A program made the translations under genes and the position numbers. 20,379 nt of DNA from a virus. The DNA lies in IMG/VR virus record IMGVR_UViG_3300042691_037408, positions 1 through 20,379 of that record; one strand, written 5' to 3'. Below, one piece after another: positions 1 through 14,879 of this stretch. The notes under the pieces are model-generated. The model worked only from the letters and a program-made list of their open reading frames with translations. It was not told where the DNA came from and did not search any database. The stretch's first letter is position 1. Every line of letters begins with the position of its first letter.

Positions 1-1387
1 CGCTCGGATTGAGTTTCTTACTCCCATCGTCCGCCTTGGGGGCGGGGGCTGGAGCCGAGGATCCAACTGATGGAGAAACGTGTTTTTGCGCAGCAGGAGC
101 GGCCTGTTGACGCTGCGTCTGACCCTGCTGACCAGAGCCTGATTGCGCAGAACTCTGCCCGTACCGTTTTTTCACGGCCGTTGTGATCTGATCGTACTCC
201 TGCTTGATGATCGTTTTTTGATCGGATCGGAGCTTATAAAGGACCTCGTCCTTGCCCACCGTCCAGTACCTGGACCGCTTCTCCGCTGGCATGTTGGCGA
301 AGTCCTCCATGGTGGCGAACCGCTTCTGCACTTGGCGACCCCCAATGGTCTCCACCTTGATGCGGTCAGACGGCTCCAGTGCCAGCACCGAGTTCTCAAT
401 GCTCATCATGACCTCCTCGATCTTGGCATGGATCGGATTGGACTGCGTGGGAGCGACAAGCCCTTCGGAGATCTTGATGGTCTCAGTGATCAGGGGGCTG
501 AAGATCTGGGCTGCCTGAGACACCAGCTTCAGCGCAATGGGGTCTTCGTCAGCCAGGCCCTTCTCGCCATCCTTCTTCACCACCTCCACGAGCTTCGGGT
601 CGATTGCCTCCAGGGCCTCCAGCACGGAATCCGTGGCCGTCTGCTCTGCGATTGGGGCAACCCGCTGGCGGCGTTCCTCGGACTGGCGCTTGGAGCTTTC
701 CTCAGCTAGGGCCTTTGACGCCTCCTCGCGAGCCTCCCTCTTGATGATGCGGAGCTGGGCATCCTCAAGCTGCTCGTCGATGTCATCGAACTTGTTGGTC
801 GGATCGTTTTCGGCGTACCAATCCGTGTGTTCGTCGTCGTTCGGGTCGAACTTCTCGCCGGGATTCTCCTTCAGCCACTCGGCCTTGTACTGATCCTCAA
901 TGCCGCCGACCTTCTTGAAGTCGACAACCTGCTTCACGATGCCCTTGAACGCAGTGTCCTGCTGCTCCAGCTCCTGGAACAGAGCCATCTTGCGCTGAAC
1001 ATTCTTGGGCAACTCGGGCTGTGGTTCGGGCTTTGGATCCTCCCGGATCTGGGAGGCCTTTACCGCGGCGGTGGCGGCGGCGGTGGCAGCCTTGGTGATC
1101 GCATCCTCATCCAGAAGCTCCTCAGCCTTGATGATCCGTGGTGCCTTGGCCCGCTTGGGCTTGGCTTCGGGTGGATCCTGCGGAGCTGGCTTCTCTTCAG
1201 CCTTCTCCGTGGTGGGCGCTTCAGTCTCCTGGCTCACTGACGCAGAGGGCTTCTCCTCCTTCGCAACCTCCGCAGGTGCGGGGTCAGCGGGCTTTGGGGC
1301 TGCCTCAGCGGGCTTTGCGCCAAACGAACTGAGAATGGTACGAGCCACCTCAGACTGCTTCTGTTTATCCTCCACTTCGTTACTCAT
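1..1387 (-). CDS. Probable capsid scaffolding-like protein (partial, C-terminus outside window)
   Basis: An uninterrupted frame runs leftward from an ATG at 1387 to the window edge, giving 462 codons without a stop. The first ~110 residues are a disordered Pro/Ala/Glu/Lys-rich stretch (AEAAPKPADPAPAEV is typical). A charged, helix-prone middle follows (many E, K, Q, D), and the last visible part is Gln/Ser/Ala-rich (QQGQTQRQQAAPAAQ). No enzymatic motif is visible. Acidic, low-complexity, coiled-coil-prone proteins just downstream of a portal gene are commonly scaffolds that occupy the procapsid before the major capsid protein, and that is the basis of the call. The start overlaps the stop of the preceding gene as ATGA, so the two are probably translationally coupled. 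It could instead be another head-interior or structural protein. The coding frame is certain and the function is an inference. Confidence 0.6.
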   Translation of the reverse strand, partial: MSNEVEDKQKQSEVARTILSSFGAKPAEAAPKPADPAPAEVAKEEKPSASVSQETEAPTTEKAEEKPAPQDPPEAKPKRAKAPRIIKAEELLDEDAITKAATAAATAAVKASQIREDPKPEPQPELPKNVQRKMALFQELEQQDTAFKGIVKQVVDFKKVGGIEDQYKAEWLKENPGEKFDPNDDEHTDWYAENDPTNKFDDIDEQLEDAQLRIIKREAREEASKALAEESSKRQSEERRQRVAPIAEQTATDSVLEALEAIDPKLVEVVKKDGEKGLADEDPIALKLVSQAAQIFSPLITETIKISEGLVAPTQSNPIHAKIEEVMMSIENSVLALEPSDRIKVETIGGRQVQKRFATMEDFANMPAEKRSRYWTVGKDEVLYKLRSDQKTIIKQEYDQITTAVKKRYGQSSAQSGSGQQGQTQRQQAAPAAQKHVSPSVGSSAPAPAPKADDGSKKLNPS

Positions 1388-1674
1388 ACGAACTTCACTA
1401 TCTGAAACGATTCCCTGCCAACCAAAGACTCCAGCTCGCGGATTGCGAGCCGAAGCGCGGCTGCCGAGGCCAGAGCTTCCTTCGCCTTCATGGGAAGGTC
1501 TGAACCTGCCGCCATTGCCGTGAGATCAGTCATGGCCGTTTGCAGTGCCTCAATCTCCAGGATGGATACCTGGCCTTTCAGCACCTGCAAAGCGACGTCC
1601 ATCTGCGGATCCTCAAGCCAACGCCTGAGCTTTTTCTCATCCTCCCCGAGGAGAGGATGCTCGTGTATCATCAT
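1384..1674 (-). CDS. Small helical phage protein between portal and scaffold
   Basis: A 96-residue protein beginning MMIHEHPLLGEDEKKL. It is predicted by eye to be mostly alpha-helical, with an acidic N-terminal third and two Ala/Leu-rich amphipathic helices (around residues 37-60 and 63-85). No recognised family or motif. It is linked by 4-nt ATGA overlaps at both ends, with the portal stop upstream and the scaffold-like ATG downstream, so it is translated as part of the head operon. A small assembly or linker protein is plausible from position only. Two consecutive ATGs (1674 and 1671) are possible starts; the first is the one that forms the ATGA overlap. Confidence 0.7.
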   Translation of the reverse strand: MMIHEHPLLGEDEKKLRRWLEDPQMDVALQVLKGQVSILEIEALQTAMTDLTAMAAGSDLPMKAKEALASAAALRLAIRELESLVGRESFQIVKFV

Positions 1675-4031
1675 TGAGGCGGAGCGGGCGGCTGGGGCAC
1701 CAAGGTTTCCACGAGACGGTTGAGCTGCTCCATGAGCATTCCCATGGCCTCATCCGAGGTCTGGGCTTTCTGCGCGATCTCGGTGATGGCCTGCTCAAGC
1801 GCCGTGATCTTCTGCTCGTGGGCGGCGACGGGCTCTCCAAGCTGCTGCTGGATTCCTCCAACGAGCGGCTCCAGCTGGGATTGGACGACCGCTTGGATCT
1901 GCTGCACAGCCTGCTCCTGGGAAGCCTGCTGCGCTGCCTGCTGCTCTTCCTCGCTGGGCGGCTTGGGAGCGGACATCATCGCCTTGAAGTCTCCCGGGAC
2001 ACCCATGCGGGAGGCCACCTGGTTGAACATCTTCAGGATGTTGTCGAGACCCACCAGCTGAGCGATCTGCGGGACCATCATGCGGTCGACGAACGTCAGC
2101 ATCAGCTGCGCTGCCTGAGGATCGCTGATGCGGTTGGCTCCCTCGCGCTCGCTGGAGAACTGCTCAACCGACAGGGCCTCCTTGGAGCCAACGACTCCGT
2201 AGCCAGCCTCCTCTCCGCGCTCCACCTCGAAGCCTGCCCGGTTGAGGGCAGCCATTCCACCCTCACTGAGGTCAGCCACCTGGACGGTGATCTGGTCACT
2301 GCCATGTGCGAGCAGCGCATTGTAGAGCGCCTTCTTCATGGCGTAGATGGCCGGATCAATTCCAGACGCCGTGAAGCCCATCCGCGCCGTGGTGTTGGTC
2401 GCGGTGATGGACGTCTCGGTGGCGGACTGCTGGTGGTCAGCTGTCTGCCCGAGCTCCTGCGCGGAGAACCCGAGCACACGCTCAGCCATGCCGATGATGG
2501 TGTTGATCGCGCCGATCAGTTCACCCGTCGGCTGGATGGGCATTTGCACAGGCACAAAGGCCCGGCTGTAGTCGCTCTGCTGGCGGGCGAGGTGCTTGCC
2601 AGAGAACTTCGCGAACTCGATTCCGCGGAGCATGTTCTCGGCGGAGTTCTCCACGGTCTTGAAGAACTCGTCGGTGACCATGTCCGTGTCCACCCCAACC
2701 ACCCGGATGAGGTTCTTCTTCACAGTCATGAGGTACTGCGAAAGAAGGTTGGAGATGTGGTCCTGGAACGGCAGGAGCTCCTGGGCCAACGAGGAGTTGG
2801 TGGTCCGGTTCTCGTCGTACTCGTACAGGTAGGCGTGGACGGGAGCGTAGCCCATCGGCTCGGCGAAGATGACGCTGCGATCGCCTGCGTAGACGAAGCG
2901 CATCCACACCGGGTACTCGTAGTCTCCGAGACCCCAGTCCTTCGGGACCAGCTTGTGATGGAAGTCCACCACGTCGACGCCATCGTCGTTCTTGGCTCCC
3001 CGCCGGTAGTAGAACGCCTCCTGCTCGCGCTCGTTGCTGCCGCCAGTCCTGATGTCCGGGAAGCGGGCGGCACACGGGTACAACTCCTGGTAGTACGTCC
3101 AGAGGCTGCTGTTGCGCCAGGAGAGGTCCTTGAACCCGATCTTGTCCTTGTTCCAGTAGTGGGGGCTGGAATCAACCTCCTGCCACCGCTTGATGCTCCA
3201 GAACCCGGCGTACTCACAGCCGGAGTCGCTGTTGATGGTGTGGAGCGGGTGGGCCTGGTCGAAGAAGCAGCGGGTGGGGTGCGGGCGGTACCACCGGATA
3301 CCCTCCTTCACCACCTTCTTGGATCCCTTGATCATCTGCTCCTCGCGGTAGTAGGACTCCCGAGGGAACACGAGGCACCGTGAGTACAGGAGCATGTCCT
3401 TGATGGACTGCTTGATGTCCTCGCGGTAACCCAGATCGACAGAGAACCGATCAATTCGGGCCGTGATCACCTTGCACAGGGCGCGGTCTGCCTCGTCCTG
3501 CCGGTGAGGCTCGTACTTCAACAGAGGGTACACGTCCCGGTCGTTGAATAGCTTGGCCCACCGGATCTTCACGTAGGCCGCCACCATCGGCATGAAGATG
3601 TTGAAGAACGTGGGCAGGTTGAGCTTCTTCCCCGGATTGCCGGAGTTGTTCTTCATCCGCCGACCCATGTCGTCCAGGCGGTGGCCGGTGGAATCCACCA
3701 TGTCCACGAGCATCGACTCCAGGCCCCAGTCCTTGGCCATGGACAGAAGCTCCTTCTGGCCCGGCCCACGATCGATCAGGTCGCTGACGATGGTGTAGGT
3801 GATCTGGTTCTGGGAGGCGTCGAATGCCTTGTCGATGGCCCTGATCACGCGAGCCTCAGCCAGGCTGCGGCGCACTCCTTCATCAATGCGCCAGCGGTGA
3901 AGCTCAATGAGCTTGTTCACCTTCTTGCCAGACTCGGTCTTCTCGCGCTCTTCGTCAGTAGCCTCGAAGATCTTCTTCAGGGATTCCTGATCGAGGCCCT
4001 TTGAACGAACGTGTTCTAGGTCGATGTACAT
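1671..4031 (-). CDS. Portal protein (putative)
   Basis: A 786-residue protein, in the upper range for phage portals. The portal forms the ring at the capsid vertex through which the terminase pumps DNA and to which the tail attaches. The N-terminal ~150 residues are helical and charged. The central region (about residues 150-560) holds the portal-like core, with aromatic-rich stretches such as FFNIFMPMVAAYVKIRWAKL and helices such as ELIGAINTIIGMAERVLG. The last ~110 residues are a Gln-rich coiled coil ending in a Pro-rich tail (VPQPPAPPQ), as seen in several portal C-termini. Position supports the call: a scaffold-like gene follows, and TerL is the next gene upstream in the opposite direction. 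The start ATG at 4031 lies inside the previous gene's 3' end (16-nt overlap). It could be another head-tail connector, but length and context favour portal. Confidence 0.75.
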   Translation of the reverse strand: MYIDLEHVRSKGLDQESLKKIFEATDEEREKTESGKKVNKLIELHRWRIDEGVRRSLAEARVIRAIDKAFDASQNQITYTIVSDLIDRGPGQKELLSMAKDWGLESMLVDMVDSTGHRLDDMGRRMKNNSGNPGKKLNLPTFFNIFMPMVAAYVKIRWAKLFNDRDVYPLLKYEPHRQDEADRALCKVITARIDRFSVDLGYREDIKQSIKDMLLYSRCLVFPRESYYREEQMIKGSKKVVKEGIRWYRPHPTRCFFDQAHPLHTINSDSGCEYAGFWSIKRWQEVDSSPHYWNKDKIGFKDLSWRNSSLWTYYQELYPCAARFPDIRTGGSNEREQEAFYYRRGAKNDDGVDVVDFHHKLVPKDWGLGDYEYPVWMRFVYAGDRSVIFAEPMGYAPVHAYLYEYDENRTTNSSLAQELLPFQDHISNLLSQYLMTVKKNLIRVVGVDTDMVTDEFFKTVENSAENMLRGIEFAKFSGKHLARQQSDYSRAFVPVQMPIQPTGELIGAINTIIGMAERVLGFSAQELGQTADHQQSATETSITATNTTARMGFTASGIDPAIYAMKKALYNALLAHGSDQITVQVADLSEGGMAALNRAGFEVERGEEAGYGVVGSKEALSVEQFSSEREGANRISDPQAAQLMLTFVDRMMVPQIAQLVGLDNILKMFNQVASRMGVPGDFKAMMSAPKPPSEEEQQAAQQASQEQAVQQIQAVVQSQLEPLVGGIQQQLGEPVAAHEQKITALEQAITEIAQKAQTSDEAMGMLMEQLNRLVETLVPQPPAPPQ

Positions 4032-4387
4032 GTGGTCAATGGTTCCGCTGGTGTCTGGACTGAATCAACCCACTTCTGGTAGATCTCGTACTCCTGCGGT
4101 GTCACTTGGAGCGACATCTGGATCTTTACGACCGGGCGCACCCTGAGCCCGGGACAGAGATCGAACTCATCAATGAGCTTCTCCTTCAGCTCAACCAGAT
4201 AGATTTTACCGATGTCAGGCCTTACGCGCCGACGCTGAGGTCGGACTGCGGCCAGCAATCCGATCTTCCCATCCACATCCGTGACGATCCGGATCTGCCT
4301 GTGGGGTGACTTGCCTCCGACCAGCCGATCCAGGTGATCAAGTGGCCGGTCGTCCTGCTCAAGCCTCTTCGGAGTCGCCTTCTTCAT
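4016..4387 (-). CDS. Hypothetical small head-operon protein
   Basis: A 123-residue protein when started at ATG 4387, which has a GAAGG Shine-Dalgarno-like run 5 nt upstream. The same frame is open further upstream, but that part is a shadow of the acidic tail of the preceding gene. The body is basic and beta/alpha mixed (QIRIVTDVDGKIGLL, IYLVELKEKLIDEFDLC), followed by a helix (TPQEYEIYQKWVDSVQ). I do not recognise the family. It overlaps the preceding gene by 29 nt and the portal start by 16 nt, so it belongs to the head operon. Role unknown; an assembly or regulatory protein is possible. Confidence 0.6.
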   Translation of the reverse strand: MKKATPKRLEQDDRPLDHLDRLVGGKSPHRQIRIVTDVDGKIGLLAAVRPQRRRVRPDIGKIYLVELKEKLIDEFDLCPGLRVRPVVKIQMSLQVTPQEYEIYQKWVDSVQTPAEPLTTCTST

Positions 4388-4682
4388 CATCACCTTCTTC
4401 ATCATCCTCGTAGGCGACCTCGGTCGGCTTCCCACCCACGGCGACGATCTCAACCGTCACATCGGTGGGGCCGTCCTTGGTGTCGGTGATCCGGGAGATC
4501 TTGAACTCCGCCGTCACGCGCATGGTCTTTCCGGCTTGGAGCTTCTGGTTGCCGAAAACCGCCGCGATGGCCTCCTTGTCGTAGAGGGAGAATGACGGAT
4601 AGCGCGGCTCCGATTCAGATTCGCTGTCCTTGGACATGGCGATGACCATCCCACCTGACGGCTTGTAGGCGCAGTCTTTCAT
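4359..4682 (-). CDS. Acidic-tailed small protein, first gene of the minus head operon
   Basis: A 107-residue protein starting at ATG 4682. An in-frame TTG at 4718 is less likely because it coincides with the -35 hexamer of the promoter. The core (residues ~25-88) looks like a small beta-rich domain (GKTMRVTAEFKISRITD, PTDVTVEIVAVGG). The last ~18 residues are almost only Asp, Glu and Gly. An AAGG lies 9 nt before the ATG, and the -10 box of the likely promoter ends 8 nt before it, so the mRNA may be nearly leaderless. The family is not recognised. An acidic-tailed beta protein beside head genes could be a decoration or accessory protein, but nothing shows this directly. Confidence 0.65.
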   Translation of the reverse strand: MKDCAYKPSGGMVIAMSKDSESESEPRYPSFSLYDKEAIAAVFGNQKLQAGKTMRVTAEFKISRITDTKDGPTDVTVEIVAVGGKPTEVAYEDDEEGDDEEGDSEEA

Positions 4683-4686
4683 CGGC

Positions 4687-4714
4687 TTGAGCCTTAGCGA
4701 TTTTTGTGTAACCG
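4687..4714 (+). promoter_or_regulatory. Promoter of terL, facing the head-operon promoter
   Basis: TTGAGC (4687-4692), a 16-nt spacer, TAACCG (4709-4714), and 11 nt to the terL ATG at 4726. It overlaps the oppositely directed promoter almost completely, so the two operons may compete for polymerase. No Shine-Dalgarno is visible before terL, which fits a very short leader. Confidence 0.4.
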
Positions 4715-4718
4715 TCAA
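4691..4718 (-). promoter_or_regulatory. Promoter of the leftward head operon
   Basis: On the minus strand: TTGACG (4718-4713), a 16-nt spacer, TAAGGC (4696-4691), then 8 nt to the ATG at 4682. A start site at the usual 6-8 nt after the -10 would fall at or next to the start codon, so the transcript would be leaderless. The geometry matches the promoters at 6221 and 9553. The -10 is imperfect. Confidence 0.5.
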
Positions 4719-4725
4719 ACGCGCA

Positions 4726-6219
4726 ATGGATAGTCATCAAGGCTGGGTGCAAGCGAATGGCAGCTGGTACCCCAGCAGAGCGGAAAAGCAGCAGCAGATC
4801 TTCGATTGTGCGCATAGATACACCCTGATCCACGGCCCTCGTAAGACAGGTAAGTCCACAGGAATCCAGCACAAGGTGTTCAGGTGGCTGGTGCAGACTG
4901 AGAACGCCTCTGTGGGCATCTTCTCACGCACCACCCGTAACGGTAAGCAGGGTGTTTGGAAGGCTCTCATTGGTGACATCTACCGATCCTGGAATGCCAT
5001 GGGAATGACCGAGTGGGTCAAGGAGCCTGGCTATGAGATGGACACGAAGATGGCATTCTTCCGGGTCCGAAACCAGTACGGCGGGTACAGCGAGTGCCAG
5101 CTTCACTCCATCAACTACGACGAGAACGCCGAGGAGCTCCTGAAGGACTCGACCTTCACCCACATCTACATGGTCGAGGCCGATCGATTCGACCGGAAGT
5201 CTTTCAACGCGCTGCAGATGACGCTGCGCTCAGCCTCTGTCCCGTACGAGCGGCAGCAGTTCATCCTGGACTGCAACCCACCGGAGGAGGGCGAGGATCA
5301 CTGGCTGCATGACGTGTTCTTCAAGGCCAAGGGCGAGACCTCCATGGAGCAATGGAAGCTGCTGCATGAGCAGATCAGCGTCTCCATCGACGAGAACCCG
5401 TTTCTCAACGATATCCAGAAGCAGGAGATCTACCGCACCTACCAGCACGACAAGACCCTCCTGGATCGGTACTACTACGGCAAATGGGTGCGGGGCATGG
5501 AGAACTCAGCCTTCTCGGACGTGTTCATGCCAAACTTCCACATCGTTGGGGAGTTCGACTCCAACAAGCGCGAGAACGAGATGGAGCTGCTGCGCCCTTC
5601 CAAGGGGGCCTACGTGATGGACGTCGGTCTGGACGTTGGTGATGTGAACACAGCTGTCAGCTTTGGGTGTCCGCGGGTGGATGGGCACAACATCGCGTAC
5701 GACATCGTGGATGAGATCGTCTACCTGAAGGACCGGGTCACCCTGGATGAGCTGACTGTCGAGATCATGGCCCACATGGACAGGTGGGATGAGTACTTCG
5801 AGAAGATCCTCAAGACCCGCAAGCCTCAGTGGAGGTTCTGGTCTGACCCGTCCTCGCTGAAGTTCAAGGGTGCCATCGGCGGAACCGAGGCTCAGCTGAT
5901 GGAGCTGCGGAGCGATGGGCGGATCATGATGCAGGGCGTGTACAAGGCACCTGGTACCGTGCTCAAGCGGTTGGACCTCATGAAGCGGATGCTTTTCGAG
6001 GAGCGGATCTTCTTTTCTGCAAAATGCTTCAAGCACATTGAGATGCTGCGCAACCTGAGGCGCGGGTCTTCTCACACCCACATCATTGACCGCAGCTCCG
6101 AATACAAGCATGTGTTCGACTCGGCAACCTACATGCTGCAGGGGGCGATGCCTGAGGAGATCATGGCTGCATCAGGGCCTTCTTCGGCCCCTTTTTCCAT
6201 GCAATCCATCAGATTTTGA
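4726..6219 (+). CDS. terL: Terminase large subunit
   Basis: A 497-residue protein, normal length for the family. TerL is the ATPase-nuclease motor that drives genome packaging through the portal and cuts the concatemer. The N-terminal ATPase domain has a Walker A-type loop GPRKTGKST (residues ~37-45). The later IYMVEADRFD is the likely Walker B with its acidic residue. The C-terminal RNase H-like nuclease domain starts near YVMDVGLDVGDVNTAVSFG, where the first metal-binding Asp is expected, and ends near HVFDSATYML, where the last one is expected. ATG 4726 is preferred over the in-frame TTG at 4687, because that TTG is part of the -35 box and the protein begins naturally at MDSHQGW. No small terminase subunit gene was recognised next to it. 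The gene diverges from the portal operon, whereas terL and portal are usually co-directional. Confidence 0.88.
   Translation: MDSHQGWVQANGSWYPSRAEKQQQIFDCAHRYTLIHGPRKTGKSTGIQHKVFRWLVQTENASVGIFSRTTRNGKQGVWKALIGDIYRSWNAMGMTEWVKEPGYEMDTKMAFFRVRNQYGGYSECQLHSINYDENAEELLKDSTFTHIYMVEADRFDRKSFNALQMTLRSASVPYERQQFILDCNPPEEGEDHWLHDVFFKAKGETSMEQWKLLHEQISVSIDENPFLNDIQKQEIYRTYQHDKTLLDRYYYGKWVRGMENSAFSDVFMPNFHIVGEFDSNKRENEMELLRPSKGAYVMDVGLDVGDVNTAVSFGCPRVDGHNIAYDIVDEIVYLKDRVTLDELTVEIMAHMDRWDEYFEKILKTRKPQWRFWSDPSSLKFKGAIGGTEAQLMELRSDGRIMMQGVYKAPGTVLKRLDLMKRMLFEERIFFSAKCFKHIEMLRNLRRGSSHTHIIDRSSEYKHVFDSATYMLQGAMPEEIMAASGPSSAPFSMQSIRF
6175..6196 (+). terminator. Intrinsic terminator embedded in the 3' end of terL
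   Basis: GGGCC (6175-6179), a 6-nt loop, GGCCC (6186-6190), then a C and five T (6192-6196). The stem is short (5 bp) but all G-C and is followed directly by the T-tract. It lies inside the last codons of terL and just before a new promoter at 6221, so it separates two transcription units. Confidence 0.5.
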
Positions 6220-9110: not shown

Positions 9111-9321
9111 AGGGGGTTTGGTTGCGCTTGCCAGGAAGCAGGACTGTAAGTCGAGGTGAAACCCTTGCTGTGGCTTTCACGAAGTTCCCACCGCAGAAGG
9201 CTATGCACCAGGGCAACTGAAAACCCCGTTCCTCGAACCCGTGCTGCGGATCGTTCGTTTGTCGCAACCAAAAATCGATCTGGGGCTCACCATTACCCAG
9301 AATCCAGCAGGGCTGCGGCAT
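9058..9321 (-). CDS. Doubtful ORF upstream of the SWIM gene
   Basis: An 87-codon frame starting at ATG 9321 (MPQPCWILGNGEPQIDFWL). Its first 50 codons have about 70% G/C at third positions, which fits a gene here. The last ~18 codons overlap the SWIM gene in another frame, and the product ends in an implausible basic tail. It matches no family I know. It could be a short gene bridging the promoter at 9536 and the SWIM gene, or a remnant. Confidence 0.25.
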   Translation of the reverse strand: MPQPCWILGNGEPQIDFWLRQTNDPQHGFEERGFQLPWCIAFCGGNFVKATARVSPRLTVLLPGKRNQTPFESRTSGRRVVPIPCPK

Positions 9322-9487
9322 GGAGCCGCATGCTGTTTCCGCCTGTGGAGCGGCGTAGGGCCAATGCGGGATTGGAGCGATGTCGCATCAGCCCAGTTTT
9401 GGGGGCCAGGTCGATTTGGCCTCCCAAATTGTGAAAGAGCGTGCCAGCCGCAACCATCAACCACCGATCCCTCAGATATGAACCCAC
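9293..9487 (-). CDS. Doubtful ORF, first after the leftward promoter
   Basis: A 64-codon frame from GTG 9487 (product begins MGSYLRDRWLMVAAG), located about 21 nt after the -10 box of the leftward promoter, so it would be the first reading frame on that mRNA. No Shine-Dalgarno or recognised family. It and the following 87-codon frame overlap by 29 nt. Without one of them the transcript would have a leader of nearly 400 nt. Confidence 0.25.
   Translation of the reverse strand: MGSYLRDRWLMVAAGTLFHNLGGQIDLAPKTGLMRHRSNPALALRRSTGGNSMRLHAAALLDSG
9305..9335. repeat. GC-rich inverted repeat
   Basis: CAGCA (9305-9309) with TGCTG (9331-9335), and TGCGGC (9314-9319) with GCCGCA (9325-9330), form an 11-bp stem with a 4-nt bulge and a 5-nt loop. 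It sits in a stretch without a convincing gene. TTT follows on the plus side, too short for a good terminator. Confidence 0.5.
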
Positions 9488-9508
9488 CTGGCGGCTGGTA
9501 CGGGTGTA

Positions 9509-9536
9509 TTTGTAGCGTAAGTTGTAGAGATGTCAA
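9509..9536 (-). promoter_or_regulatory. Promoter of the leftward nuclease cassette
   Basis: On the minus strand: TTGACA (9536-9531, consensus), a 16-nt spacer, TACAAA (9514-9509). It is the best sigma70-like match in the window. On the opposite strand its spacer carries GTAGC (9512-9516) and GTAGA (9524-9528) 12 nt apart. It diverges from the promoter at 9553 with 16 nt between the -35 boxes, so both could be controlled by one bound protein. Confidence 0.6.
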
Positions 9537-9552
9537 CGCCTACATGAAGTCA

Positions 9553-9580
9553 TTGACGTAGCTACCTCCATCGCTACCAT
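9553..9580 (+). promoter_or_regulatory. Promoter of the rightward replication module
   Basis: TTGACG (9553-9558), a 16-nt spacer, TACCAT (9575-9580), and 7 nt to ATG 9588, predicting a leaderless mRNA. GTAGC (9558-9562) and its inverse GCTAC (9573-9577) flank the spacer as a 5-bp inverted repeat, a possible operator. Confidence 0.5.
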
Positions 9581-9587
9581 CGCCTCA

Positions 9588-9788
9588 ATGAACTCAGGCG
9601 CATCAAAACGTGGGGCCGCCCTCAAGCTGGCCATGGAGAACCGCAAGAAACTGCAGGATCAGAGGATCGCCTCCTACCGCCGGAAAGACCGCAAGCTGCG
9701 TGATGAGGATCGCAAGGATCCCGTCTACCGAGAGGCCATCAACGCCTACCAGCGCGAGTACCGCAAGAGGCAGAAGGAGGCCAAGTGA
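9588..9788 (+). CDS. Small, highly basic protein
   Basis: A 66-residue protein, nearly all charged helix (ASYRRKDRKLRDEDRK, YQREYRKRQKEAK), rich in Arg, Lys, Asp and Glu. Such proteins often bind nucleic acid or act as small adaptors, but no family is recognised. ATG 9588 has no Shine-Dalgarno and lies 7 nt after the -10 box, so it is probably translated from a leaderless mRNA. It is the first gene of the rightward unit, and its stop overlaps the next GTG as GTGA. Confidence 0.65.
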   Translation: MNSGASKRGAALKLAMENRKKLQDQRIASYRRKDRKLRDEDRKDPVYREAINAYQREYRKRQKEAK

Positions 9789-9922
9789 CGTTCAACCATG
9801 TGTTGGCGCTGGGAATCATCGCGGCGTTCATACTGCTGATGGAGCATGGTGGCAGGCTGGTTGACCTGCTGGCGGACTGGCTGGCCAGACGCAATGGGGT
9901 CGAGAAGGAAGACGAAGAATGA
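9785..9922 (+). CDS. 45-residue single-pass membrane protein
   Basis: GTG start at 9785 in a GTGA overlap with the previous stop. The product is a short polar start, one hydrophobic helix (VLALGIIAAFILLME, residues ~6-20), an amphipathic helix (LVDLLADWLARR) and an acidic end (EKEDEE). One transmembrane segment with a charged cytoplasmic-type tail is visible. Size fits a small phage membrane protein (superinfection exclusion, lysis accessory and similar roles exist), but nothing identifies the role. It is the last coding sequence before the structured non-coding region. Confidence 0.55.
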   Translation: MTFNHVLALGIIAAFILLMEHGGRLVDLLADWLARRNGVEKEDEE

Positions 9923-9924
9923 CC

Positions 9925-9953
9925 TTGCGTCCGTAGCTATGAACGTGTAGATG
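9925..9953 (+). promoter_or_regulatory. GTAGC-box promoter before the non-coding RNA candidate
   Basis: TTGCGT (9925-9930), a 17-nt spacer, TAGATG (9948-9953). GTAGC (9933-9937) and GTAGA (9947-9951) start 14 nt apart. The predicted start near 9960 is followed by ~145 nt without a coding frame, ending in a terminator-like hairpin. Confidence 0.45.
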
Positions 9954-9957
9954 AAGG

Positions 9958-10101
9958 GCGTGGATACGCGAGGTGTGAGAGCCTAACGAATCCAAGCAGG
10001 AACATGATCGTAGAATTCAATTTACCCCACCAGGGACCCGTCGCTGCCTCGGCTAGTTCCGGCCACCAGCGATCTCTCACCTCTGGTGGGGTTTACTTTT
10101 T
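9958..10101 (+). ncRNA. Structured RNA or attenuator leader candidate
   Basis: About 145 nt with no plausible gene, bounded by a promoter-like site and a terminator-like hairpin. Visible pairings: GCGT/ACGC (9958-9961 with 9966-9969); ACCCCACCAG with CTGGTGGGGT (10024-10033 with 10083-10092); nested TCGCTG/CAGCGA (10041-10046 with 10067-10072); and innermost CGG/CCG (10050-10052 with 10059-10061). In addition GAGGTG plus AGAG (9970-9975, 9978-9981) can pair with 10074-10083, an arrangement that would compete with or form a pseudoknot against the terminator stem. It could be a free phage small RNA, or a leader controlling the initiator gene that starts 7 nt later. It does not fold as a tRNA. 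Confidence 0.45.
10024..10101 (+). terminator. Terminator-like hairpin with long structured loop
   Basis: A perfect 10-bp stem (10024-10033 with 10083-10092) encloses a 49-nt loop with nested stems, and is followed by TTACTTTTT. It ends just before the ATG at 10108, so termination here would cut off the replication genes unless it is regulated. Confidence 0.55.
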
Positions 10102-10107
10102 CTACAG

Positions 10108-11061
10108 ATGATAGCCCCAAACATTATCCGGCAGGACGAGGTCAACGTGATCTTTGTCCGCAGTGAGCTGGATGACGCCCGGTTGACCGCGTACGAGTTC
10201 CGCGTCTACGCCCACATCGCCAGAAGGTCGAACTGCTTCGCCTCACTGGAGTCCATGGCAGACATCTGCCAGATGAGCGAATCCCAGATCAAACGGGTGA
10301 TGGCATCGCTCAAGGAGAAGGGGATGATCCACATCATCAGCAGGCCCGGGACAACCAATCTGATTTCCATCACTCCGCCGCGGATTTGGTCTGAGGATAC
10401 GTGGCGTCAGATTGAGCTTTCGAGGAGGGCTTTTGTCGAAGGGATTGAGGGGTCGCAGGAGGGGGAGGGTAGCTCTGTGGGAGCTACCCACCCAGCTCTA
10501 CCAGAGCTACCACCCAGCTCTACCAGAGCTACGAAGGATATCCCTTTAAGGAAATCCCCTTTAAGGGAGGGGGAGGAGCAGCCATCCGACTCCGCGGATG
10601 GAGAGCCCCGGGAGACTGTGTCTCCTCAAGGCAAACCCCCCGTCTCCCACCCCAAGAGTTCCGCGCCACCCCCTCCCACCCCCCGGCAGCGAAACCTCCT
10701 GGGCGAAACCATGCTTGAGGTGTGCTGGGGGATAGCCGACTACACCAAGGCCACCGCCGCCCAGTGGTCCCTCGCCTCCAAGACCCTCAAGGAGCTGAAG
10801 CAGGTGCAGCCCGACCTCACCCCGGAGATGCTGCGCGAATTTGCCGCTAGGATGCGTCGGGAGTGGGATGGGCGGTCATTTACCCCGGCGGCGATTGCAA
10901 AGCACTGGCGGCCTATCCCAGCTTCAGGAAACGGCATTCCTGATCCCCACCCATTCCCCGGATCCGCCCGGGTGACCACCGCAGAGCTGGTAGCCCGGTT
11001 CCCGTCGGGTCCGGAGCAGGCCAAGTGGAGGAGGCGTTTGATGGAGGAAGGGAGGTACTGA
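10108..11061 (+). CDS. Winged-helix replication initiation protein
   Basis: A 317-residue protein. Residues ~20-85 form a winged-helix/helix-turn-helix domain: LTAYEFRVYAHIARRSN, then LESMADICQMSESQIKRVMA as the recognition part, then a wing ending ISRPGTTNLISI. A Pro/Ser-rich linker (about 130-195) is encoded by the tandem repeats at 10489-10532. A C-terminal helical domain (ETMLEVCWGIADYTKATAAQ to AIAKHWRPI) could contact the helicase. The layout of DNA-binding N-terminus, iterons within the gene and a DnaB-type helicase downstream parallels phage O-type initiators that bind the origin and load helicase. ATG 10108 has no Shine-Dalgarno and directly follows the structured region. The next small gene begins one base after its stop. 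DNA binding is well supported; the initiator role is inferred. Confidence 0.7.
   Translation: MIAPNIIRQDEVNVIFVRSELDDARLTAYEFRVYAHIARRSNCFASLESMADICQMSESQIKRVMASLKEKGMIHIISRPGTTNLISITPPRIWSEDTWRQIELSRRAFVEGIEGSQEGEGSSVGATHPALPELPPSSTRATKDIPLRKSPLREGEEQPSDSADGEPRETVSPQGKPPVSHPKSSAPPPPTPRQRNLLGETMLEVCWGIADYTKATAAQWSLASKTLKELKQVQPDLTPEMLREFAARMRREWDGRSFTPAAIAKHWRPIPASGNGIPDPHPFPGSARVTTAELVARFPSGPEQAKWRRRLMEEGRY
10471..10570 (+). repeat. Iteron block and adjacent repeats, candidate replication origin
   Basis: Two exact tandem copies of a 22-bp unit (10489-10510 and 10511-10532). Each contains the inverted repeat AGCTCTACCAGAGCT (10494-10508 and 10516-10530). A degenerate third copy precedes them: AGCTCT 10471-10476 and AGCTAC 10482-10487. 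Immediately downstream, CCCTTTAAGG occurs twice (10542-10551 and 10557-10566) in the most A/T-rich short stretch nearby. Iterons plus an A/T-rich element inside an initiator gene match the layout of lambda-type origins. Confidence 0.55.
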
Positions 11062-11062
11062 T

Positions 11063-11236
11063 ATGAACAAGACCGAGATCAACCTGAGGCTGGCGGCGAT
11101 CGACCTGCTGTTCTCCATGTCGGCCAAGCGGAAGAACCTGATCAAGCAACAGCGAGCCCTTTTGAAAGCCATCACCGAATCCCAGCAGCAGGAAAGGCTG
11201 CAGATGACCCAACCCATGAACCAAGGAACCCTGTGA
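11063..11236 (+). CDS. 57-residue helical protein between initiator and helicase
   Basis: ATG 11063, one base after the initiator stop; its own stop overlaps the helicase GTG as GTGA. The product is a helical, basic protein (MNKTEINLRLAAIDLLFSM, then KRKNLIKQQRALLKAI) with a Gln-rich end. No family is recognised. Its position between initiator and DnaB-like helicase makes a loader-like or regulatory role possible, but it is far smaller than known loaders (lambda P, DnaC) and has no ATP-binding motif. Confidence 0.6.
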   Translation: MNKTEINLRLAAIDLLFSMSAKRKNLIKQQRALLKAITESQQQERLQMTQPMNQGTL

Positions 11237-12576
11237 GCAAACCCAAGGACGAGCTGCCTCCCCACTCCATCGAAGCGGAACAGGGGGTGCTGGGGTGCTG
11301 CCTGCTGAATCAGGAGAAGCTGGACGTGTGCCTTCAGGCGGGGATGACCCGCCAGTGGTTCTACGACCTGAGGCACTCGGAGGTCTTCGATGCGCTGGTG
11401 GCCACCTACAACCGGGCGATCCCCAGCGACGTGATCATCATCGGTCAGGTGCTCAAGGAAGCCGGGAAGATCCAGCATGTGGGTGGGCTGGCCTACCTCT
11501 CGGAGCTGATGGATAAGGTGCCATCAGCCGAGATCATCACCCACTACACCCAGATCCTGCGGGACTACTTCATCCGACGACGGCTCATGTTCGCCCTGGC
11601 GGATGGGCAGCTGAAGGCCCGGGACGAGCGGGAGACGGCCGACAACCTCATGGCCTCGGTGGAGTCAGCCATCGACCAGTGCCGGATCGGGGTGGCTGAG
11701 GCCGAGTCCCTGACGAGCAAGGAGGCGGTGGCTGTGGTGATCGACACCCTCCAGGAGCGGGCGGCAAAAGCGAAGGAGTCCAGTGGCGTCACCGGGGTGC
11801 CCACCGGGTTCAAGCAGCTGAACCGGATGACTGCTGGCTGGCAGGCTGGAGAGCTGATCCTTGTCTGCGCCAGACCTGCTGTAGGCAAGAGCGCCCTCCT
11901 CATGAACTTCGCCCGGGCTGCCGCGGTGGATTCCCGTGTACCCACCCTGGTCCTGACGGCCGAGATGAGCATCGAGCAGATGGCCCGAAGGCTGGTGTGC
12001 GAGGTGGCTTCGGTGGATGGCAAGATCGTCCGCAATGGGGATATCTACAACATCCCCTCCTACGCCTCGGAACAGCGGCGGCTGGTGTCCTCTGCCGCCC
12101 GGGTGCAGAAGTCCCCGATCTTCTGGCGCTACGTCAAGGGCATGGCTGCCTGCGAGGTGGGGGCCTTGATCCGATCGCATGTCCGCAAGCACGGGGTAGG
12201 GCTGGTGGTGATCGACTACCTTCAGCTGCTGGAGCCGGACCACCGCACGGGGACGATGACGTACGACATCGGGACGGTGGCGGAGTCGCTGAAGGGCTTT
12301 GGGGTGAAGAACAATGTGCCGATCATCTGCGCTGCCCAGCTGAACCGGGAATGCGCCAAGGGCAACCGACGCCCCCAGATCTCGGACATTGGCGACTCAA
12401 AGCAGATTGAGCAGGCCGGTGAGGTGATCATGCTCATCCACCGCGACACCGAGGAGGATCCCACGAAGGCTGAGGTCAACCTGGCGAAACAGCGTGAGGG
12501 TGAGACGGGTGTCATCCCAATGGGTTACGTGCCTGCGTGGTGCCGCTTCACGGAAGAAGCTGTGGTTCCTGAATAA
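11233..12576 (+). CDS. dnaB: Replicative DNA helicase, DnaB family
   Basis: A 447-residue protein, full length for the family. DnaB forms a hexameric ring that unwinds the fork 5' to 3' on the lagging strand. The N-terminal primase-interacting domain starts HSIEAEQGVLGCCLL (residues 11-25). After a linker the RecA-like domain begins with TGFKQLNRMTAGWQAGELIL. Walker A is ARPAVGKSALL (213-223), followed by LTAEMSIEQMARRL (241-254), Walker B VVIDYLQLL (325-333), the AAQLNRE segment (367-373) and the AKQREGETG arginine-finger region (418-426). The Walker A has Val-Gly in place of the common Met-Gly. The GTG start at 11233 is set by the GTGA overlap. A promoter for the next unit begins 7 nt after its stop. 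Likely works with the initiator at 10108. Confidence 0.93.
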   Translation: MSKPKDELPPHSIEAEQGVLGCCLLNQEKLDVCLQAGMTRQWFYDLRHSEVFDALVATYNRAIPSDVIIIGQVLKEAGKIQHVGGLAYLSELMDKVPSAEIITHYTQILRDYFIRRRLMFALADGQLKARDERETADNLMASVESAIDQCRIGVAEAESLTSKEAVAVVIDTLQERAAKAKESSGVTGVPTGFKQLNRMTAGWQAGELILVCARPAVGKSALLMNFARAAAVDSRVPTLVLTAEMSIEQMARRLVCEVASVDGKIVRNGDIYNIPSYASEQRRLVSSAARVQKSPIFWRYVKGMAACEVGALIRSHVRKHGVGLVVIDYLQLLEPDHRTGTMTYDIGTVAESLKGFGVKNNVPIICAAQLNRECAKGNRRPQISDIGDSKQIEQAGEVIMLIHRDTEEDPTKAEVNLAKQREGETGVIPMGYVPAWCRFTEEAVVPE

Positions 12577-14263: not shown

Positions 14264-14472
14264 ACCATATTGGTGACGGCAACAAAATGGTGGGCGACAC
14301 GCCCAGGACGGATGCGGAGGCCAATGATCAATACTCTATGGTGCTGACGGGCAACGGATTGAGGCGTGCGCTGGTTCAATCCGACTTCGCCCGCCAACTG
14401 GAACGCGAGCTTCAGGAGGCTCAAGAGCGAATCCGGCAACTTGAGCTTTTGATTCAAACACAAACCAAATGA
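14260..14472 (+). CDS. Small coiled-coil protein (TPRTDA type)
   Basis: A 70-residue protein, MNHIGDGNKMVGDTPRTDAE, with a C-terminal coiled coil (SDFARQLERELQEAQERIRQ). I recognise the TPRTDA...ARxLERxL arrangement from many small phage proteins of unknown function. It shares the QLEREL segment with the protein at 13782. ATGA overlaps at both ends place it in the same coupled series. Confidence 0.7.
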   Translation: MNHIGDGNKMVGDTPRTDAEANDQYSMVLTGNGLRRALVQSDFARQLERELQEAQERIRQLELLIQTQTK

Positions 14473-14879
14473 ACAACACTATGAGTATTGAGGAGTTCTG
14501 TGGCCTACACGATGCGTGTGACGAGGGCCGCAAGTGGGCGTTGGAAAACTGCGTGTCGATGGAGGATGCGTGGGCGAAGCTGAAGCCTGAATGGTTGATC
14601 TGGGTTGCGACGCGCAAAGGTGTGCTGACGGATCGCGAGTTGAGGAAGTTTGCGGTGTGGTGTGCGCGACAGGTGCAGCATCTGATGACTGATCCGCGCA
14701 GTGTGGCTGCGTTGGACGTGGCGGAGAGACATGCTGAAGGGTTGGCAACAGATGAGGAGTTGGCTGCTGCGGGGGCTGCTGCGTGGGATGCTGCGGTGGA
14801 TGCTGCGGGGGATGCGAGGGATGCACAAGCAGCGTGGTTGCGGGAAAACACGAAGCCGAATTTCGGGAAAACCAAATGA
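14469..14879 (+). CDS. Conserved phage hypothetical protein with Ala-rich repeat tail
   Basis: A 136-residue protein. The N-terminal part (EEFCGLHDACDEGRKWALEN, KPEWLIWVATRKGVLTDREL, FAVWCARQVQHLM) is a helical domain that I recognise from memory as recurrent in phages and prophages. The C-terminal part is an Ala-rich helix with A-A-G-D/W repeats (ELAAAGAAAWDAAVDAAGDA). Its DNA (14761-14825) consists of near-repeats of GATGCTGCGG, which could expand or contract. Function unknown. Coupled to neighbours by ATGA overlaps. Confidence 0.7.
   Translation: MNNTMSIEEFCGLHDACDEGRKWALENCVSMEDAWAKLKPEWLIWVATRKGVLTDRELRKFAVWCARQVQHLMTDPRSVAALDVAERHAEGLATDEELAAAGAAAWDAAVDAAGDARDAQAAWLRENTKPNFGKTK

Follow-up and report, generated by a model that had tools for sequence, protein, structure and literature searches.

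A conserved leader RNA with a predicted loop-to-hairpin pseudoknot and an overlapping reading frame precedes replication initiator genes of uncultured viruses

In plasmids of the IncI-alpha and IncB groups, the loop of an upstream hairpin pairs inside the open reading frame (ORF) of a leader peptide whose end overlaps the initiator gene, the partner sequence forming part of the stem that conceals the start site. Plasmids are already known to regulate initiator dose through a leader ORF together with a pseudoknot. Expression of RepA in the I-complex plasmids needs translation of the leader (PMC10286972), and the action of a pseudoknot as a switch for repZ is the claim made in the title of a paper cited in PMC10724649. 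An overlapping leader ORF has also been described for S004-repA of SGI1, where RepA is lost when the leader is given a premature stop codon (PMC7826253). The Pseudomonas REx-C systems consist of stem-loop modules with a non-conserved leader peptide that are swapped between non-homologous rep genes, and whose specificity is altered by few loop changes; their authors argued that no pseudoknot extends into the rep region (PMC5304414). If an unrelated RNA with this arrangement precedes several different phage initiators, then phages too have evolved, or borrowed, a portable RNA-based form of replication control.

An RNA of this layout was recognized in IMGVR_UViG_3300042691_037408, a record of 20,379 bases from an uncultured virus (the whole stretch that was analysed, hereafter the window), which encodes a terminase, a portal-like protein, a replication initiator and a DnaB helicase. 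The initiator (317 aa; 10108..11061, plus strand) carries an HTH_36 match and is PHROG 270-like, and a DnaB-like replicative helicase (11233..12576, plus strand) was identified downstream of it. Relatives of the initiator were found on Nostoc and Deinococcus plasmids, and its N-terminus was consistent with a start at ATG 10108; a search of viral_contigs with the window's initiator or dnaB alone gave no close relatives. The whole leader element (9957..10107, plus strand) lies directly 5' of the initiator start, its homologues having been recovered with covariance models, and comprises a first hairpin (H1), a linker, a second hairpin (H2) and a U-rich tail. The last gene before it, read directly as an open frame, is a 45-codon ORF (9785..9922, plus strand). 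A previous inspection of the letters alone (the sequence-only reading) had described a promoter-like site followed by ~145 nt without a gene, ending in a hairpin; the observation holds, and the element is larger than that description, with a further hairpin and a leader ORF. The proposed promoter (TTGCGT at 9925-9930, a 17-nt spacer and TAGATG at 9948-9953) is weak on inspection, with 3/6 matches per hexamer, and was absent from a promoter scan, and the supposedly gene-free stretch contains a frame open from ATG 10004 to TGA 10111.

H1 (9962..9993, plus strand) is built of short helices, with small symmetric internal loops between them, and is capped by a 6-nt loop: from the base upwards, 4 bp, a 1x1 loop, CG/CG, a purine-rich internal loop, AGGU/GCCU and the hairpin loop. 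H2 (10024..10092, plus strand) is terminator-like, with a lower stem of 12 bp (10024-10035/10081-10092), an upper, nested hairpin (10040-10073), a 4 x 7 internal loop and a G-rich 3' arm (GGUGGGG). The perfect 10-bp hairpin with nested stem and T-rich tail that had been noticed earlier was found here: ACCCCACCAG/CUGGUGGGGU (10024-10033 / 10083-10092) form the core of the lower stem, and the U-rich tract UUACUUUUUCU (10093..10103, plus strand), a possible terminator tail that doubles as the final codons of the leader ORF, stops a few nt short of ATG 10108. The minimum free energy of 10018-10103 was -36.7 kcal/mol (z = -5.4), with 0 of 200 shuffles as good, and z was -6.9 for the part of the window that runs from the leader ORF up to the start codon. 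Among the seven members of the family gathered below, H2 regions gave z values from -3.1 to -6.9 and 0 of 300 shuffles were as stable in any member. MAFFT aligned full-length H2 poorly, so this hairpin was assessed from individual folds of the members, and pair counts were restricted to H1 and the pseudoknot.

In order to find homologues, a covariance model built from the single window sequence (model R1) was run on viral loci fetched by DnaB. It matched L007 (16 bits, E 0.27) and, once further loci had been fetched by DnaB, L131 (33 bits, E 2e-5), L136 (16.9 bits) and L138 (13.3 bits), whose elements all lie ~0.9-1 kb upstream of dnaB. A second model of H1 plus the linker, made from these four and the window (model R2), matched two further loci outside its training set, L181 (E 1.8e-7) and L132 (E 2e-6). 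The six homologues lie on other uncultured-virus contigs, each directly 5' of a replication-initiator gene (in L132, before an HNH gene that precedes the initiator), and the elements are mutually 63-79% identical in pairwise global alignment. The family thus numbers seven members, a small sample gathered through a dnaB query and hence all beside dnaB. Rfam yielded no window match at gathering score, none at E<=10 for the region and none at E<=0.5 in the homologous loci, which fits an undescribed RNA; a blastn search of the RNA against known phages returned short chance matches only, with none for the two homologues queried, and the element was not found in the literature searched. Models R2 and R3 gave weak matches only, with a fold unlike the element, in 388 Verrucomicrobiota genomes, and no comparable element was seen by eye upstream of initiator relatives in Nostoc, Deinococcus, Verrucomicrobiia and Akkermansia. 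Pattern scans of viral_contigs produced apparent chance matches that did not fold like the element (L087-L089, L121-L124), and a looser descriptor search returned mostly noise. With the covarying base pairs found among its homologues, the element constitutes a new, defined RNA family that can be searched for in metagenomes. As a separate observation, L136, L138 and L132 share TTTGCACATTCC(A/G)CCCGCGTAGATAGAAACGCG ~40 nt upstream of H1, which may be a promoter or another element.

The sequence-only reading had also proposed that 9970-9981 can pair with 10074-10083, and an exact match was found within these limits: the strand GUGAGAG (9975..9981, plus strand; the H1 loop GUGAGA and the next G) is complementary to CUCUCAC (10074..10080, plus strand), so that a 7-bp kissing pseudoknot is predicted. 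The partner coincides exactly with the seven nucleotides on the 3' side of the H2 internal loop, is unpaired in the unconstrained fold and covaries with the H1 loop; the supposed overlap with the base of the terminator arm was not borne out. Loop and partner read GUGAGAG/CUCUCAC in the window, GUGGAAG/CUUCCAC in L007, GUGAGAA/UUCUCAC in L131, GUGGAAA/UUUCCAC in L136, L138 and L181, and CUGAGAA/UUCUCAG in L132, all seven pairs being Watson-Crick in all seven members though the sequence varies. Each partner was found by looking for a complement to its loop; two facts are independent of this search, namely the placement of the partner in the H2 internal loop and how seldom a given 7-mer is expected in ~100 nt (an estimated ~0.6% per member). 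An unpaired complement to the loop of length at least 6 occurred in 0.7% of 1000 shuffled 154-mers. In pair counts over six distinct sequences, aligned after omission of two bases inserted in L132, four of the seven pseudoknot pairs showed double compensatory changes and three were invariant, while in H1 three outer pairs and one inner pair had both sides changed. Covariation of the whole structure, again over six distinct sequences, reached 0.613 vs 0.237 ± 0.051 in shuffles (0/500). Moreover, sliding the partner by 1-3 columns lowered the pairing of H1 and pseudoknot from 98% to 31-43%, and complete pairing was obtained only between a loop and its own partner, save for members sharing a loop (L136, L181). 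On these comparative grounds, the folded structure of H1, H2 and pseudoknot is almost certainly real and conserved.

When H2 was folded alone, the seven partner bases were unpaired in six of the seven members, and in L136 leaving them free costs 0.9 kcal/mol. H2 and the pseudoknot are compatible, because the partner is unpaired and lies in the 3' internal loop of H2 and not in the terminator arm, and both helices are retained together in all members. Hence, where two exclusive folds or a pseudoknot had been suggested, the pseudoknot is upheld and the exclusive folds are not. This bears on the reading of the element as a transcription attenuator, in which H2 and its U-tail would form an intrinsic terminator before the initiator AUG, with readthrough decided by translation of the leader or by a factor that binds the pseudoknot. 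As in leader attenuators and intrinsic terminators, a GC-rich hairpin with a U-rich tail stands before the gene; the stem is strong in the window and stable in all seven members, and at least five T occur in the 8 nt after the stem in five of them. In contrast to such terminators, the tail is not conserved, being poor (4/8 T) in L138 (CCTTCATT) and L132 (ATTCTTCA), it coincides with the coding end of an ORF that crosses the hairpin, and a kissing pseudoknot is present. Furthermore, no antiterminator helix excluding H2 was found, the sequence that pairs with the H1 loop not being part of the H2 stem. Attenuation is considered possible, at low probability.

The AUG of the linker opens a frame that runs in register through H2 in all seven members. 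In the window this leader ORF has 35 codons (MIVEFNLPHQGPVAASASSGHQRSLTSGGVYFFYR; 10004..10111, plus strand) and its stop TGA (10109-10111) overlaps the initiator ATG 10108 as ATGA; it has 31 codons in L007, L131, L136 and L138, 35 in L181 and 38 in L132. The stop overlaps the next start codon in every member, as AUGA in six and by 8 nt in L181, and in L132 that start belongs to the HNH gene, with the initiator following. Distances from the AUG to the next start were 92, 100, 104 and 113 nt, which indicates that indels preserved the register. As a short GC-rich frame will frequently lack stop codons by chance (0.43-0.77 for each member in shuffles), the argument for the ORF rests on register and overlap. 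A clear Shine-Dalgarno sequence for the leader AUG is absent in most members; a G-rich, Shine-Dalgarno-like sequence is predicted within the H2 3' arm, 7-13 nt before the next start, in six of the seven. At the sequence level, comparison of the members establishes the two hairpins, the pseudoknot and the leader frame that overlaps the next start, and the leader ORF is likely to be translated. Programmed frameshifting was rejected as an explanation, a conserved slippery site being absent from the overlap.

The frame is open in all members and its peptides share recurrent ends in several of them ('M(K/N)..' and '..GFFIS'), as would be expected if the locus were a conserved small protein gene whose codons produced the RNA structure as a by-product. 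The leader peptides are nonetheless only 10-25% identical to that of the window, UUUACCCC and the pseudoknot elements fall in different reading frames, and compensatory changes track base pairing, so that this explanation is scarcely credible. Depending on the member, the partner strand of the pseudoknot is read in frame 0, 1 or 2 relative to the leader ORF, which, together with the unconserved peptide, points to selection on the RNA and on translatability and not on the product. The same ORF bears on the alternative put forward by the sequence-only reading, namely an undescribed phage small RNA or an attenuator controlling replication genes. An undescribed structured RNA placed to control replication genes agrees with the data, and homologues with covarying pairs, which the sequence-only reading had named as its test, were obtained. 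A stand-alone, trans-acting RNA of ~145 nt ended by H2 would account for the compact, strong fold, the terminator-like end and the lack of an Rfam match, yet it is very unlikely, as the leader ORF overlapping the next start is kept in all seven members, the element always stands in cis directly before a gene and a promoter of its own is not convincing.

The gene following the element matched initiator or primosomal PHROG families in five of the seven members (270 in the window, 9474 in L131 and L138, 9327, with DUF1376, in L136, and 1408 in L181), and the Pfam and PHROG matches of the initiators comprised HTH_36, DUF1376 and phage replication families. In L132 an HNH endonuclease (2440-3114) is followed by an L138-like initiator starting at 3111, and the next protein of L007 was without a family match, its N-terminus resembling that of L138. 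As the element is attached to different initiator families, autoregulation by one initiator is unlikely. The conserved purine-rich internal loops of H1 and its invariant loop bases could form a site for a host or phage protein that binds the pseudoknot and controls translation in an autoregulation-like manner, the leader ORF being secondary; with downstream genes of different families, and no candidate binder identified, this account was judged improbable.

The preferred reading, which we hold with moderate confidence and by analogy with the plasmid systems, is that of a cis-acting leader of a phage replication operon, in which translation of the leader would open H2 and allow reinitiation at the initiator, tuned by the pseudoknot. 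H1 and H2 would be joined by the 7-bp kissing interaction, and the leader ORF, starting in the linker, would be translated through H2 and finish at the start codon of the initiator itself (AUGA). The G-rich stretch preceding this codon would be buried in the 3' arm of H2, ribosomes on the leader ORF would open H2 and then reinitiate at the overlapping AUG, and the pseudoknot may set how often this occurs by locking or repositioning H2 and the leader start region. Translation of the ORF, its coupling to the initiator and the sign of the pseudoknot effect are what we infer from the arrangement, and a trans factor (antisense RNA or protein) may act on the H1 loop. Such a leader would probably control the amount of replication protein, as some plasmids control copy number.

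The element comes close to the IncI-alpha and IncB replicons (RepY-RepZ, RepB-RepA), with which it shares a leader ORF whose end overlaps the next start in all seven members, and an upstream hairpin loop that pseudoknots with leader-ORF sequence (7 bp in all seven, with compensatory changes). It differs from them in that the rUUGGCG loop motif is absent, the loops here being GUGAGAG, GUGGAAG, GUGAGAA, GUGGAAA and CUGAGAA, and in that the partner lies in an internal loop and not in the start-hiding stem; no Rfam or sequence match was seen, the initiators match phage families, and the carriers are phages and not plasmids. Given its different loop motif, and with any antisense RNA hypothetical here, the element was not filed as an IncI-alpha member. 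In S004-repA of SGI1 and tap-repA of R1 the leader ORF likewise overlaps repA within a stem-loop masking the repA start; a pseudoknot is not mentioned for SGI1 in PMC7826253 and a sequence relation was not seen. Like REx-C, the element would be a control module with a non-conserved leader peptide before different initiators; REx-C belongs to plasmids of one genus, and the likeness drawn here is again one of layout. The element resembles the IncI-alpha, IncB, R1 and SGI1 replicons by layout, and no homology to them was seen.

L138 and L132 were 98.4% identical over 311 nt ending 11 nt into H1, and 88.7% identical for 300 nt from the initiator ATG. Between these flanks, L132 has a different H1 loop, a different H2 and an added HNH gene, loop and partner having changed together; this exchange suggests that the element may be swapped as a cassette between initiator genes. 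A bolder proposal, which we regard as tentative and put forward with low confidence, is that a lineage-specific code is made up of the H1 loop together with its partner in H2. A counter-transcribed RNA or comparable trans factor would read this code, which would set initiator dose and superinfection compatibility in a cassette swapped between unrelated initiators, equivalent to plasmid copy-number control. On the minus strand at 10010-10028, opposite the conserved end of the linker, stands GGGGTAAATT (GGGGTAAAAT in L136), a putative -10 for an antisense RNA over H1, with no recognised -35. HNH genes were observed directly behind the leader element (L132:2272-3114) or behind a diverged leader-like ORF (L159:2348-2452), which suggests that the leader can travel with, or serve, homing endonuclease genes. 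The ORF of L159 overlaps its HNH gene, but its H1 was a misfit and this locus was excluded from all counts.

Several other features were noted in the window. Inside the initiator gene, at 10481-10532, there is an iteron-like 22-nt tandem palindromic repeat (GAGCTACCACCCAGCTCTACCA x2.3), possibly a replication origin as in lambda O-type genes. Upstream, ~477 nt between divergent genes (9111-9587) are without a convincing ORF and had no Rfam match; a sigma-70-like sequence (TTGACG-16-TACCAT, 9553-9580) ends 7 nt before ATG 9588, and the first early gene may therefore be leaderless. An 8.6-kb contig (L002, IMGVR_UViG_3300032116_019336), which ends short of the leader element, corresponds to window positions 1-5750 with 100% protein identity, covering nearly all of the portal and terminase residues 1-354. 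Finally, a 12-nt tandem repeat (14765-14815) within the ORF at 14469-14879 encodes an Ala/Asp-rich stretch.
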